Part shown: positions 4,882 through 56,946 of the stretch, in pieces | Layout of the letters: every line of letters starts with the position of its first letter | Numbering within the stretch: the stretch's first letter is position 1 | Assembly (NCBI GenBank): GCA_900317155.1 | Contig: ONFO01000008.1 | Span: forward strand, 92,516-156,515 | Direction: 5' to 3' | Origin: an uncultured Bacteroidales bacterium | GTDB taxonomy: Bacteria; Bacteroidota; Bacteroidia; Bacteroidales; F082 | Length of the DNA: 64,000 nt | The notes under the pieces: model-generated | What the model saw: the letters and a program-made list of their open reading frames with translations, nothing else | Database searches by the model: none | What the model was told of the DNA's origin: nothing | Position numbers and translations under genes: made by a program

Positions 4882-6288
4882 ATGGCATTCCAACCCGATG
4901 AATACGATTATGACGAATCGATAAATGATTTACCAGACTTGTCGTTTGATATGAGCAAGTTCATTGAGGAAGTGTTCAATAATATGTATATTTTGATTAT
5001 TGGAAGCGAAGTGATTCTTGACACCAAGGTTGAACCTTCTGGAGACATCAACAGATATTTATTACGACATGTCAATAAACGATTAAAAAGCAATTATGAA
5101 AACTTTAATGAGCTTTTTCTTCATTCAAACGAAATGATTGACCCTATTCGCAATTTGCTTTCAAAGGAGAAGTTTAAAAAAGAAATGGAGATTGGAGACA
5201 TCTCTGAAGAGTTAAGGAATCTACTTCGCACCAAACTCTTCAAAGTAGTCATCACCACAACGTTCGACAGCTATTTGGAAATGCTGATGCGTGATATTTG
5301 GGATGACAAGGATGACAAATTACTCAATGTCGTAAACATTTGGGATGCAGAGTCGTTATCCAATTTCCAAAAACGTTTGACCAAATACCCAGACCCTAAA
5401 GATTACAATGAACCAACCCTTATTTATGCTTTCGGAAAATGTGAAGAAAAAGTAGACATGAAATATGCACGGATTGACTTTGATTATATTCAAGCCATAG
5501 AGCGATGGATGAGTTTTGATGCGAGAAGCGACAAAATGATGCAGTTCATACAGAGTAAGCGCCTGCTTTCTTTAGGCTGTAAGTTCGATGATTGGTATTT
5601 CCGATTCTTCTGGTACATCCTGAAACGTGAGAAAGACAAGCAACGAGAAGGGGAGATTGCAATCGTTTTTGATGAGAATGACCGGTCTGAAAAGAATTTG
5701 AAAACCTATCTTTTCAATGCCCGGGTGTTTACCCATCCCCAGGAGAAAACTGACGGAGAAAAAGATCCTACCCGTAAATTTATGCAAGATATCCACAATG
5801 CTCTTACCTCTTTAGATGATAACAATTCATACCGTGACCAAGTTCTCAAATTACGTCGACGGGGAGTCATCTTTTTTTCCTATTGCAATAGAGATAAAAA
5901 GATTGCACGAGAACTGTTTTTGAAGCTACAATCTTTATATCCTAACTTATGGTTTGACGATGAAAAAATATTATGTGGCGATAATTACGAAAAGGAAATA
6001 CTAAATGGCATCAAGAACGCCAAGGTTTTTGTTCTATTGCTCACACCAAGTGTAGCAGAGGATTTAACCAATAATATAACGGATAATTTCTATAACGGCG
6101 AATGGAGAATTGCTCTTGAAAAAGGTAAGATGATTATTCCGCTTGCGACAGAAGGTTTTTCTTTGAAAGAAGATTACCGAAAAACTTTTGAAAACATCAT
6201 CGGGTATCCCATTTCAATTATTGAGACTAAAGAAACCAACTGGTTTAACAAACTTTTGAACGATATAGACGAAAACCTGAAAAAATAA
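4882..6288 (+). CDS. SIR2-like plus TIR domain antiphage-type effector
   Basis: I take ATG 4882 as the start (468 residues); the frame extends upstream to a GTG at 4807, but that part is AT-rich leader. The N-terminal half follows the SIR2-like NADase layout: 'ILIIGSEVIL' at the GxGxS position, 'ITTTFDSYLE' at the TTN(Y/F)D position, and 'LLSLGCKFDDWYFRFF' at the late SIR2 motif. The usual catalytic Asn is Thr (T127) and the usual HG is FG (F184-G185), so this domain may be inactive. The C-terminal domain (about 327-455) is TIR: 'GVIFFSYCNRDKKIARELF', 'AKVFVLLLTPSV' and a candidate catalytic Glu in 'GEWRIALEKG'. TIR domains of this type cleave NAD+ to stop phage growth. A STAND ATPase gene follows 7 bp downstream and probably acts with it. 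Confidence 0.8.
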   Translation: MAFQPDEYDYDESINDLPDLSFDMSKFIEEVFNNMYILIIGSEVILDTKVEPSGDINRYLLRHVNKRLKSNYENFNELFLHSNEMIDPIRNLLSKEKFKKEMEIGDISEELRNLLRTKLFKVVITTTFDSYLEMLMRDIWDDKDDKLLNVVNIWDAESLSNFQKRLTKYPDPKDYNEPTLIYAFGKCEEKVDMKYARIDFDYIQAIERWMSFDARSDKMMQFIQSKRLLSLGCKFDDWYFRFFWYILKREKDKQREGEIAIVFDENDRSEKNLKTYLFNARVFTHPQEKTDGEKDPTRKFMQDIHNALTSLDDNNSYRDQVLKLRRRGVIFFSYCNRDKKIARELFLKLQSLYPNLWFDDEKILCGDNYEKEILNGIKNAKVFVLLLTPSVAEDLTNNITDNFYNGEWRIALEKGKMIIPLATEGFSLKEDYRKTFENIIGYPISIIETKETNWFNKLLNDIDENLKK

Positions 6289-54172: not shown

Positions 54173-54216
54173 ATTAGACTTTTTGCACGATAATCAAGCC
54201 ATAATTTGTAATTTTG
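54173..54216. promoter_or_regulatory. Divergent promoters of yqgE and murL-murD
   Basis: CAAAATTA (54173-54180) is the minus-strand -7 box. TAATTTTG (54209-54216) is the plus-strand -7 box, with TTTG at 54182 as a -33 candidate. The plus box overlaps the TTG at 54214, which argues for a later start of the fusion gene. Confidence 0.55.
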
Positions 54217-56946
54217 TGGCATAAAAACACTCTTGTCTTGAAACGAACCGACAATCAATCCAAATTTGATGCCCTGCGAAAGGAATTTTCGTCTTTCACT
54301 TTCGAAAGCCAGACGGTGAAACGAGCAAAGGGAGCCTTGTCTTTGGCTTTTGATTTTAACCTCGACGACCGCTACCATTTCCGCCCGACCTTGGAGATAC
54401 CTGCAAGACCTTTCTTCGATTGGGACAATATGACCGAGGAACAGTTGCAGGCTTTGGCGTTCCAAATCGGCATGACGGAGTTGGTGAGCTATTGGAAAAT
54501 CGCCTGTCCGAAAAAGGTGGTGGTGAAGCCTTTTGCCTTGACGGAGAAACAAAATGCATTTTGGAAAAAGCTGTATTACAACGGGCTGGGTGAGTTTCTT
54601 TATCTAAATAGCATCATGGTTCCGGAAACGGATTTGATGGAGATAATCACGCTGCCCATAGATTCCAATCCCTCGCACATCCTCTGCAGGAATGACATGG
54701 GCAGCTGCATACATTTTGAGGAAAAAGCATTAGTGCCAGTTGGCGGCGGCAAGGACTCCGTGGTGACGTTGGAATGCTTGCGCAACAAAATGCCCGTTAT
54801 TCCATTGATTGTGAATCCTCGTGGCGCGACCTTGAATTGTGTGAAGACGGCGGACTATAAAGAAAACGAGTTCATCATCATCAACCGCACCCTCGACCCG
54901 ACTATGCTGAAACTCAACGCCGAAGGCTATCTTAACGGCCATACGCCTTTCTCGGCCTTGTTGGCTTTCATCAGCATTTTGGTTGCCTTTGGAAGTCATT
55001 CGAAGTACATTGCCTTGTCGAACGAAAACAGCGCGAACGAGTCGACAGTGCCTGGAACAAATATCAACCACCAGTACAGTAAATCCATTGAATTTGAAAG
55101 CGACTTCAGGAACTATGTGGCCGAGAACCTCAGTGAAGAAGTGCAGTATTTCAGTTTCTTGCGTCCTTTGAGTGAACTGCAGATCGCCAAGCTGTTTTCG
55201 CAATGTGAGGCCTTTCACCCCGTGTTTCGCAGCTGCAACGCGGGCAGCAAGACCGACTCGTGGTGCGGCAAATGCCCCAAGTGCCTGTTCACGTGGATTA
55301 TCCTGTCGCCCTTCCTTTCAAGAGAGAAGCTGACGTCTGTTTTTGGCAAAGACTTGATGGCCGACGATAGCCTGCAACCCATCCTGGAAGAACTGAACGG
55401 CACGGCTGCCGTGAAGCCCTTCGAATGTGTGGGCACGGTGGAGGAGGTGAGGGCATGCCTTGAAGCTGTTGAGGGTAGACGAGGCAAGGTGGAAGAGATC
55501 CTTAGTCGCTTCAACCCCCATCATTTCCTGCCTCCACATTTTGAACAAATCCTGAAAACTGCTTTGAATGAAGGAATCAATCCTACGGCATCACTGCCCA
55601 TAGATTCCCTCCAACACACATGCCTGCACAGGAATGACATGGGCGGTGAGTTTGATTTGATACTGAATCGATTACGCGGCAAGCGCATTCTCATCCTTGG
55701 CTTCGGCAGAGAGGGCAAGTCGACGCTGCGTTTCTTGCAAAAATACCTGCCTGAGGCCGTCGTTGCGGTGGCCGATAAGAACGCGATGGAAGGTGTCACC
55801 CATACAGGTGAGCATTATCTTGAGGCGATGTACGATTACGACATCGTCATCAAGACGCCAGGCATCTCGTTGAAAGATTTCAACACGAAAGGGATTGAGA
55901 TCACCTCACAGACTGACCTATTCCTTAGTCAGTTCCATGCGCAAACCATTGGCATCACGGGCACCAAAGGCAAGAGCACGACTACAAGTCTTATCTATCA
56001 TCTGCTGAAATCTTCAGGACGCGATGCCATCCTCACGGGCAACATCGGCATCCCCTGTTTTGATGTGATGGAGGACATCAAGCCTGAAAGTATCGTGGTG
56101 TACGAGCTCTCGGCGCATCAATTGGAATATGTGCACAACAGTCCCCGAGTGGGCGTACTGCTCAATATTTTTGAAGAGCATCTCGACCATTTCGGGACGA
56201 TGCAACGTTACACCCAGGCCAAACTCAACATCATGCGTTATATGGGCGAAGACGACATGGCTGTCGTCCATGAGTCTTTGATGGAGGAAGCCTGGAGTCT
56301 GTTCGTCAACAATATCGTGTTCTCCTTGTTTGATATCGATGATCTTGTCGACTGCACGGCCTTGCCGCTGAAAGGCGAGCATAACCTGTTGAACGTCAAG
56401 GCGGCATTGCTCGCGTGTTATGCCTACGGTGTGGATGCTCTGGAACTTGTTCCTTATCTCTATACTTTCAAACCATTGGAACATCGATTGGAGCCTGTTG
56501 GTACCTTTGGTGGCGTGACCTTCGTCAACGACAGCATCTCCACCATCCCTCAGGCCACCATCTCGGCATGCGAGGCTTTGGGGCGCGTCGACTTCCTGTT
56601 GCTTGGCGGATTCGACCGTGGTATCGACTATCAGCCTTTGGTGGAATATCTGAAAGCGCATCCTGTGCCGCACCTTTTGTTTACTGGAAAAGCGGGGGAG
56701 AGGATGATGCAATTAATAGCTAAGGTTGCTGAGTCTGCGGTTACCGAGCATAGCCGAAGCATCGAAGGGTCGACCTTGTTTTATTATGCCACTATGGAAG
56801 AAGCCTTTTCTTACGTGGCTGCAAACGCTAAGCCAGGCGATATTTGCCTGTTGTCGCCAGCTGCCTCCAGTTACGACCAATACAAGAATTTCGAAGAAAG
56901 GGGAGGAAAATTCAAAGCTTTGACTGCCAACTTCAAATTGGCCTGA
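54214..56946 (+). CDS. MurL-MurD fusion: peptidoglycan glutamate epimerase joined to a UDP-MurNAc-L-Ala-glutamate ligase
   Basis: 910 residues as drawn from TTG 54214; TTG 54238 is likelier because a -7 box overlaps 54214. Residues up to about 455 match MurL, UDP-MurNAc-L-Ala-L-Glu epimerase: 'VPVGGGKDSVVTLE', 'ALSNENSANESTVPGTNINHQYSKSIEFE', 'SCNAGSKTDSWCGKCPKCLF' and 'KPFECVG'. From about 482 it is a Mur ligase: 'ILILGFGREGKSTLRFL', P-loop 'GITGTKGKSTTTS', 'HNLLNVKAALLA' and 'LLSPAASSYDQYKNFEERG'. In the known MurL route, a MurD2 ligase adds L-Glu and MurL inverts it to D-Glu. Here both steps would sit on one chain. Repeats at 54652 and 55594 are read in frame; the second lies at the domain junction. 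Confidence 0.85.
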   Translation: MWHKNTLVLKRTDNQSKFDALRKEFSSFTFESQTVKRAKGALSLAFDFNLDDRYHFRPTLEIPARPFFDWDNMTEEQLQALAFQIGMTELVSYWKIACPKKVVVKPFALTEKQNAFWKKLYYNGLGEFLYLNSIMVPETDLMEIITLPIDSNPSHILCRNDMGSCIHFEEKALVPVGGGKDSVVTLECLRNKMPVIPLIVNPRGATLNCVKTADYKENEFIIINRTLDPTMLKLNAEGYLNGHTPFSALLAFISILVAFGSHSKYIALSNENSANESTVPGTNINHQYSKSIEFESDFRNYVAENLSEEVQYFSFLRPLSELQIAKLFSQCEAFHPVFRSCNAGSKTDSWCGKCPKCLFTWIILSPFLSREKLTSVFGKDLMADDSLQPILEELNGTAAVKPFECVGTVEEVRACLEAVEGRRGKVEEILSRFNPHHFLPPHFEQILKTALNEGINPTASLPIDSLQHTCLHRNDMGGEFDLILNRLRGKRILILGFGREGKSTLRFLQKYLPEAVVAVADKNAMEGVTHTGEHYLEAMYDYDIVIKTPGISLKDFNTKGIEITSQTDLFLSQFHAQTIGITGTKGKSTTTSLIYHLLKSSGRDAILTGNIGIPCFDVMEDIKPESIVVYELSAHQLEYVHNSPRVGVLLNIFEEHLDHFGTMQRYTQAKLNIMRYMGEDDMAVVHESLMEEAWSLFVNNIVFSLFDIDDLVDCTALPLKGEHNLLNVKAALLACYAYGVDALELVPYLYTFKPLEHRLEPVGTFGGVTFVNDSISTIPQATISACEALGRVDFLLLGGFDRGIDYQPLVEYLKAHPVPHLLFTGKAGERMMQLIAKVAESAVTEHSRSIEGSTLFYYATMEEAFSYVAANAKPGDICLLSPAASSYDQYKNFEERGGKFKALTANFKLA
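54652..54704. repeat. Palindromic repeat in frame within the MurL domain
   Basis: CTGCCCAT at the left pairs with ATGGGCAG at the right. The inner AGATTCC and GGAAT also pair. The left CTGCCCATAGATTCC and right CAGGAATGACATGGGC are identical to the copy at 55594. It encodes 'LPIDSNPSHILCRNDMGS'. Confidence 0.8.
55594..55646. repeat. Palindromic repeat in frame at the MurL-MurD junction
   Basis: Same 15-bp left and 16-bp right ends as the copy at 54652, with a different centre. It encodes 'LPIDSLQHTCLHRNDMGG' between the last MurL helix and the first Rossmann strand of the MurD part. Confidence 0.8.

Follow-up and report, generated by a model that had tools for sequence, protein, structure and literature searches.

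A putative bifunctional MurL-MurD2 fusion and the route to peptidoglycan D-glutamate in an uncultured Bacteroidales bacterium

How does a bacterium supply its peptidoglycan with D-glutamate (D-Glu) when the genes for an epimerase and a ligase of the pathway appear in its genome as one frame? The question is raised by a stretch of 64,000 nucleotides (hereafter, the window) from an uncultured Bacteroidales bacterium (F082; assembly GCA_900317155.1, contig ONFO01000008.1, positions 92,516-156,515 of the forward strand), whose genome (G000, of the genus labelled g1) is a metagenome-assembled genome (MAG) in draft state, 96.76% complete and split into 65 contigs. A single frame of the window, open for 910 codons on the forward strand (54214-56946), joins a region matching MurL to one matching MurD. 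Its product is very probably a bifunctional MurD2-MurL enzyme. The C-terminal half would ligate L-glutamate (L-Glu) to UDP-N-acetylmuramoyl-L-alanine, the L-Glu would be attached first and inverted to D-Glu afterwards, and the fused enzyme would be apparently the sole D-Glu route to peptidoglycan in this genome; the fusion would have been created, in this clade, by repeat-containing DNA that entered the overlap of adjacent murL and murD2 genes, parallel fusions having occurred in other genera of the family.

One frame with two halves

The N-terminal half matches the NCBIfam model NF041275 (MurL; protein residues 22-434, model positions 4-409 of 447, 257.5 bits, E 1.7e-76), below the cut-off of that model, and the C-terminal half matches TIGR01087 (MurD; residues 491-904) with 320.9 bits, above the cut-off of 211.95. 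The original prediction, which had read MurL and MurD joined in one polypeptide and had suggested that the two halves be checked separately against profiles, is borne out in this respect, and every motif that it quoted is found in the protein. Among Pfam domains, Mur_ligase_M and Mur_ligase_C exceed their cut-offs in the 910-residue protein, and MurD-like_N and DUF6395 (residues 332-381, overlapping part of the cysteine cluster) remain below theirs; all of the 28 PDB sequence matches at E <= 0.001 fall on the ligase half. Translation probably does not start at the listed TTG (54214), because the corresponding frame of the homologous locus L102 (a near-copy of genome G110) has a stop at codon 4, near 5010; a start near 54238 (TTG) is more likely. 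The ratio of nonsynonymous to synonymous substitution rates (dN/dS) is alike in both halves (0.05-0.085, six pairs of four fused sequences) and amounts to 0.28-0.43 in the linker (34 codons, the same number of pairs and sequences).

The GGGKDS, NHQYSK and KPFxC motifs and the four cysteines of the cluster are unchanged in 47 MurL sequences. The AlphaFold2 model of the MurL half is good, with a predicted local distance difference test score (pLDDT) of 91.9 and a predicted template modelling score (pTM) of 0.91. No Foldseek match of this model was obtained at E <= 0.001; the matches of highest probability were argininosuccinate synthase (4nzp, 0.99) and TrmU (2hma, 0.98), malate dehydrogenases and others ranking between the two with lower probability, and the PP-loop matches are weak (E ~0.02, TM-scores 0.16-0.26). 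The GGGKDS motif resembles the PP-loop motif. The likeness to PP-loop (N-type) ATP pyrophosphatases, such as argininosuccinate synthase and MnmA/TrmU, lies in this motif of the MurL half and in the AMP product known for MurL, whose reaction yields AMP from ATP (PMC8788868). Given the motif and the reported AMP, an adenylating PP-loop site would be the favoured reading for MurL.

Table 1. Features of the fused frame (window coordinates, all on the forward strand).
Feature	Position	Strand	Basis
murL-murD2 fusion open reading frame (ORF), 910 codons	54214..56946	+	Open frame; likely start ~54238
MurL-matching region	54238..55578	+	NF041275 22-434, 257.5 bits; AlphaFold2 residues 1-459, mean pLDDT 91.9
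51-bp element copy, in frame, in variable MurL loop	54652..54702	+	Sequence comparison
GGGKDS motif, residues 177-182, PP-loop-like putative ATP pyrophosphatase site	54742..54759	+	Invariant in 47 MurLs; weak Foldseek PP-loop matches
Cysteine cluster C341...C351-x2-C354-x2-C357, putative metal site	55234..55284	+	Invariant in 47 MurLs
Interdomain linker, residues 451-485	55564..55668	+	Absent from 27 non-fused g1 loci; low pLDDT in poor fusion model
Second 51-bp element copy, in linker; its ATG (NDMGG) usable as internal MurD2 start	55594..55644	+	Sequence comparison
MurD-matching region	55669..56943	+	TIGR01087, 320.9 bits; groups with Xanthomonas MurD2
ATP P-loop GTKGKST (K587)	55960..55980	+	Motif in sequence
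Glu655, the MurD2 Glu at Escherichia coli MurD Asp182	56176..56178	+	Alignment; role from PMC8788868
Ile775, at E. coli MurD Lys319 position	56536..56538	+	Alignment; E. coli K319T takes L-Glu (PMC8788868)
Arg802, the MurD2 Arg at E. coli MurD Lys348	56617..56619	+	Alignment; role from PMC8788868

The ligase half and the source of D-glutamate

The residues that occupy the E. coli MurD positions D182, K319 and K348 (numbering verified with a script against the K-12 gene) are Glu, Ile and Arg in the window, and the same triad is present in 125/125 other ligase sequences linked to MurL, a count that includes nine near-copies, omits four short fragments and keeps the window's sequence apart. The MurD2 of Xanthomonas sacchari, which adjoins an annotated murL, likewise has Glu/Ile/Arg. 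Among the full-length MurDs encoded in the division and cell wall (dcw) cluster of other genera, the K319/K348 pair is Lys/Lys in 13/13, and the D182 position is Asp (12/13) or Asn (1/13). The features of a canonical MurD, i.e., Asp182, Lys319, Lys348 and a location in the dcw cluster, are not those of the ligase half, with its E/I/R and its other neighbours. It is known that changing the Glu and the Arg of Xanthomonas oryzae MurD2 to the MurD residues switched its specificity to D-Glu, that E. coli MurD K319T accepts L-Glu, and that changes at D182 and K348 alone left L-Glu unaccepted by E. coli MurD (PMC8788868).

In a tree of 46 sequences, a branch with 94/87 support (not starred) sets the MurL-linked ligases and the X. 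sacchari MurD2 apart from the remaining sequences. Forcing the MurD2 and the dcw MurD sequences of the family together was rejected by the approximately unbiased (AU) test (p-AU 0.00368), and with it an origin of the ligase half from a duplication of the dcw MurD inside the family. The reference in this tree was the X. sacchari MurD2 and not the assayed X. oryzae enzyme; because the tree contains long branches (X. sacchari, 3.42), the phylogeny is supportive of a MurD2 identity, not conclusive. The triad (E655/I775/R802) and the grouping with MurD2 agree with the preference for L-Glu that had been predicted for the ligase half.

The ligase half might instead be an ordinary MurD that adds D-Glu and replaces a damaged dcw MurD, the MurL half doing something else. 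Its score above the MurD equivalog cut-off would fit such a role, though the X. sacchari MurD2 passes as well, and some canonical MurDs, as that of Streptococcus mutans, carry Arg at the K348 position (PMC8788868). This reading is nevertheless highly improbable, disfavoured as it is by the triad and by the grouping with MurD2, and no D-Glu source above cut-off was found.

Neither TIGR00067 (murI) nor PF01177 (Asp/Glu racemase) has a match in the draft genome, each search being positive in 10/14 control genomes, and murI is above the TIGR00067 cut-off in 0/149 genomes of the family. A D-amino-acid aminotransferase was found above cut-off in 0/149 family genomes, that of the window included, at a cut-off which is strict, since only 1/14 controls passes it. 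The only MurD of the genome above the TIGR01087 cut-off is the fusion. The absence of murI and of a second complete murD, anticipated in the original prediction, is thus what the draft genome displays, and none of the sequence observations that it had named as contrary to itself was made.

The other MurD homologue of the genome is a 188-residue ORF (a stub) located between mraY and ftsW in the dcw cluster (L017:6297-6863, G000:C16). Its match to MurD is confined to positions 271-440 of 441 and stays below cut-off (134.8 bits), and it matches Mur_ligase_C with 45.3 bits, above the Pfam cut-off; to judge from these matches, the N-terminal and ATPase domains of the canonical dcw murD are gone, and a C-domain protein of ~185 residues is what persists in the genus. 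A stub match is present in 73 of the 75 sampled g1 genomes, in frames that are open in all 73 and measure 179-222 residues in 71; the longer frames of G118 and G133 consist of a stub of the same size after upstream sequence overlapping mraY, and the two g1 genomes with no stub match are 71-72% complete. Among 74 genomes of other genera, 66 have dcw MurD frames of at least 446 residues, one (G004, genus g5) has a stub, five have a weak or no match, and two have shorter frames, presumed to be cut by contig edges. The gene order murE-mraY-[MurD or stub]-ftsW is the same in 21/21 loci (13 with a full MurD, 8 with stubs), and murG follows ftsW in 20/21, with the only exception of L207 (genome G099). 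K319 and T321 are lost in 7/7 aligned g1 stubs and kept in the g5 stub, and two of the six stubs scanned (L202, L206) lie below the Pfam Mur_ligase_C cut-off.

The dN/dS values of the stubs, estimated with the Nei-Gojobori method (NG86), have a median of 0.28 and a maximum of 0.47 in 146 pairs of 37 stubs, i.e., those of the 666 possible pairs that passed the filter (dS 0.15-1.2, more than 150 codons). These values indicate that the stub, where measured, is under purifying selection, the constraint being weaker than on the fusion. A recent pseudogene is disfavoured because none of the 73 g1 genomes with a match has a broken frame and dN/dS does not exceed 0.47 in any of the 146 pairs. With roughly an even chance, the whole family might depend on attaching L-Glu first, the g1 MurD having been beheaded and its C-domain kept as a non-ligase dcw protein (for example, a scaffold or a regulator at the MraY/FtsW/MurG site), and the ligase and the epimerase having been merged repeatedly, both in g1 and in other parts of the family.

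Several points weigh against a bifunctional MurD2-MurL enzyme as the sole D-Glu route. The activities are deduced from sequence, and the order of the steps, the PP-loop mechanism, the history of the insertion and any benefit of proximity are likewise inferred. The MurL half is ~31% identical to the X. sacchari MurL, and its 257.5 bits fall short of the curated cut-off of 700 of NF041275, a model named for Xanthomonadales. The AlphaFold2 model of the whole fusion (six rows in the alignment) is poor (pLDDT 55.1, pTM 0.38) and gives no domain geometry. The absences of murI and of a second MurD are not proofs, since the genome is a draft. Weak racemase matches below cut-off are present in 30/149 family genomes, none of them in g1, and weaker class IV aminotransferase matches in 143/149. 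In g1, the latter are partial (approximately positions 172-271), and most of their frames measure 343-386 residues and probably encode branched-chain aminotransferases; other genera often have class IV enzymes of ~280 residues, which could be D-Glu makers, and a link of these enzymes with a full-length dcw MurD fails in genera g6 and g8. The MurL match is absent from 7/149 family genomes, two of which, G099 (L207) and G103 (L205), are 97 and 95% complete and have the stub, no MurL and no MurD above cut-off; this may be read as an assembly gap, or else as a different solution. Finally, the positions of E. coli A414/L416 are Ser/Tyr in the window versus Pro/Phe in the X. sacchari MurD2; X. oryzae MurD2 mutants at these positions retained their stereospecificity (PMC8788868).

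Distribution and origin of the fused genes

MurL is present in 142 of the 149 sampled family genomes and in 99 of the 101 good ones. In a sample of 395 genomes of the phylum, containing one genome of the family (that of the window), a full-length MurL match was found in this genome only, with weak partial matches in five others. Most record titles of the best 80 of 578 MurL relatives refer to MAGs of uncultured Bacteroidales or Bacteroidetes; the named ones include Ca. Colimorpha, Lentimicrobium and a MAG labelled Marinifilum. Many of the closest titled loci in this set come from rumen, gut or lake MAGs. On Pseudonocardia plasmids (L250, L251), genes that resemble MurL and are annotated as hypothetical lie next to a WD40-repeat gene, and the annotated genes listed around them include no MurD2.

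In 130/130 loci, the first ligase to follow MurL is MurD2, no more than 200 nt downstream; in the window, it adjoins MurL by fusion. The two are fused in 20 of these loci (18/120 once near-copies are removed) and encoded by separate adjacent genes in 110. The 130 loci are not a random set, 12 having been picked for fused-length frames and 30 being the best family matches; because of this enrichment, a better estimate is given by the fused-length frames (880-1005 residues) in 15 of 142 MurL-bearing family genomes. Counted by genus among members with a MurL match, they occur in 3/71 genomes of g1, 5/5 of g2, 3/3 of g10 and 4/4 of g13, and those of the last three genera were confirmed as fused at the locus level. 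A MAG that is 89% identical (L100) shares this fusion and has an almost identical linker, and in G092 and G110 (near-copies L101 and L102, respectively) the halves are joined by other linkers. Since L100, G092, G110 and other genera carry fusions, an assembly artefact is disfavoured. On the MurL tree, a quick tree with approximate likelihood ratio (SH-aLRT) supports only and 10 near-identical sequences removed, the fused state needs seven changes, at least five of them forced by well-supported branches; a single origin, with the fused sequences as one clade, was rejected (p-AU 1.67e-8). By this tree, the fusions are the outcome of several independent events across the family.

At the g1 junction, the genes are separate in 27/30 loci and overlap by 8 nt: murL ends in ...V-stop, and counting back eight bases from the end of this stop leads to the ATG at which murD2 starts. 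The junction of the window holds a 51-nt sequence, CTGCCCATAGATTCC-N22-GGAATGACATGGGC, a second copy of which, with a different centre, is embedded in a variable loop of MurL. The exact 51-nt pattern has two occurrences in the genome, both in the fusion ORF; that the element might be unique to this ORF is contradicted by its core, GAATGACATGGGC, which occurs eight times in the genome versus 0 for the reversed control, with GCCCATAGATTCC upstream at 7/8 core sites. The ends of the element are, by inspection, imperfect inverted repeats and its centre is variable (copies examined at L208 and L212-L215). The G092 junction carries a related, longer insert and that of G110 another insert type, and relatives carry both types in their MurL loop, which also holds several further kinds of short in-frame insert, e.g., SERSEE and RPERSVVEKS. 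In Rickettsia, palindromic elements are known to be inserted in frame in genes; the likeness, which is one of description, lies in short palindromic repeats in frame in protein-coding genes, whereas the Rickettsia elements are ~150 bp long and that of the window is ~51 bp and sits at a gene-gene junction (PMC10969869).

An ATG is located shortly before FDLI in all three fused g1 junctions (NDMGGE, NDMGSR and HDMPAR), which would still allow MurD2 to be produced on its own. It is conceivable, at slightly less than even chances, that each half acts as its counterpart in the known pathway does and that the fusion is functionally neutral, joined by insertion, MurD2 perhaps being also made alone in g1. 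The separate genes of 110/130 loci, together with three g1 junctions bearing different repeat-like inserts and each keeping this ATG, would be in keeping with neutrality; the fused-length frames in all the MurL-matching members of g2, g10 and g13 are harder to reconcile with it, and because the fusion is genus-wide in three genera and arose repeatedly, it seems at least to be readily kept.

The original prediction had gone further, proposing that the fusion channels the L-Glu intermediate. That it evolved to hand this intermediate directly from the ligase to the epimerase might be suggested by the fact that the two steps are consecutive and the fusion repeated. The idea is weakened because 110/130 loci, i.e., most relatives, use two adjacent genes, and because the g1 linkers, of variable insert origin, resemble inserted repeat DNA with a possible internal MurD2 start. 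The order, moreover, is epimerase first and ligase second, the poor model of the fusion lends no structural support, and in the Bordetella pertussis MurE-MurF fusion the active sites are ~35 Å apart in a fitted model (PMC6420597). Channelling is thus unlikely. The prediction stands in part: the identity of the two halves, the preference for L-Glu and the missing murI and second murD hold as far as can be read from the letters, and its channelling proposal is left doubtful.

Related systems and significance

The pathway of X. oryzae, with MurD2 and MurL (XOO_1320/XOO_1319), shares with the window the same two families in neighbouring genes and the same stereospecificity residues at D182 and K348, and there, too, a glutamate racemase was not found; it consists of two separate proteins, whereas the window has one polypeptide, in a Bacteroidales bacterium whose dcw murD is a stub (PMC8788868, PMC5808125). 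The pathway has been listed in Gamma- and Alphaproteobacteria and in rare actinobacteria; a fungus, cyanobacteria and an amoeba are listed as having MurL orthologues of low similarity (PMC8788868, PMC5808125). The portions consulted of these two reviews report neither a MurL-MurD2 fusion nor Bacteroidota, and the words "fusion" and "fused" have 0 occurrences in PMC5808125; this concerns the open literature only, and novelty is unproven.

Within one Bacteroidales family, the pathway appears to be near-universal among the genomes sampled. If a bifunctional MurD2-MurL enzyme is indeed at work, these bacteria would make D-Glu-containing peptidoglycan with no glutamate racemase, an annotation based on murI would label them as deficient, and inhibitors of MurD2/MurL might hit them. 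The fused enzyme would offer a ready single-chain system for the study of ATP-driven epimerisation, and the conserved headless MurD raises the question of the role of a Mur ligase C-domain with no ligase.

Other enzymes of peptidoglycan precursor synthesis are likewise joined, namely MurE-MurF in Bordetella (PMC6420597) and MurB/MurC in Verrucomicrobium (PMC4803751), neither with MurL or an L-Glu ligase. The same applies to the bifunctional MurF/alanine racemase, known here by its model name (NF008897). The genome of the window also contains an 862-residue frame with a Mur ligase domain (G000:C28:61764-62780), which we presume to be such a MurF/alanine racemase fusion. The genes next to the murL-murD2 frame are, to judge from their translations, presumably YqgE-like, rplS-like and trmD-like.

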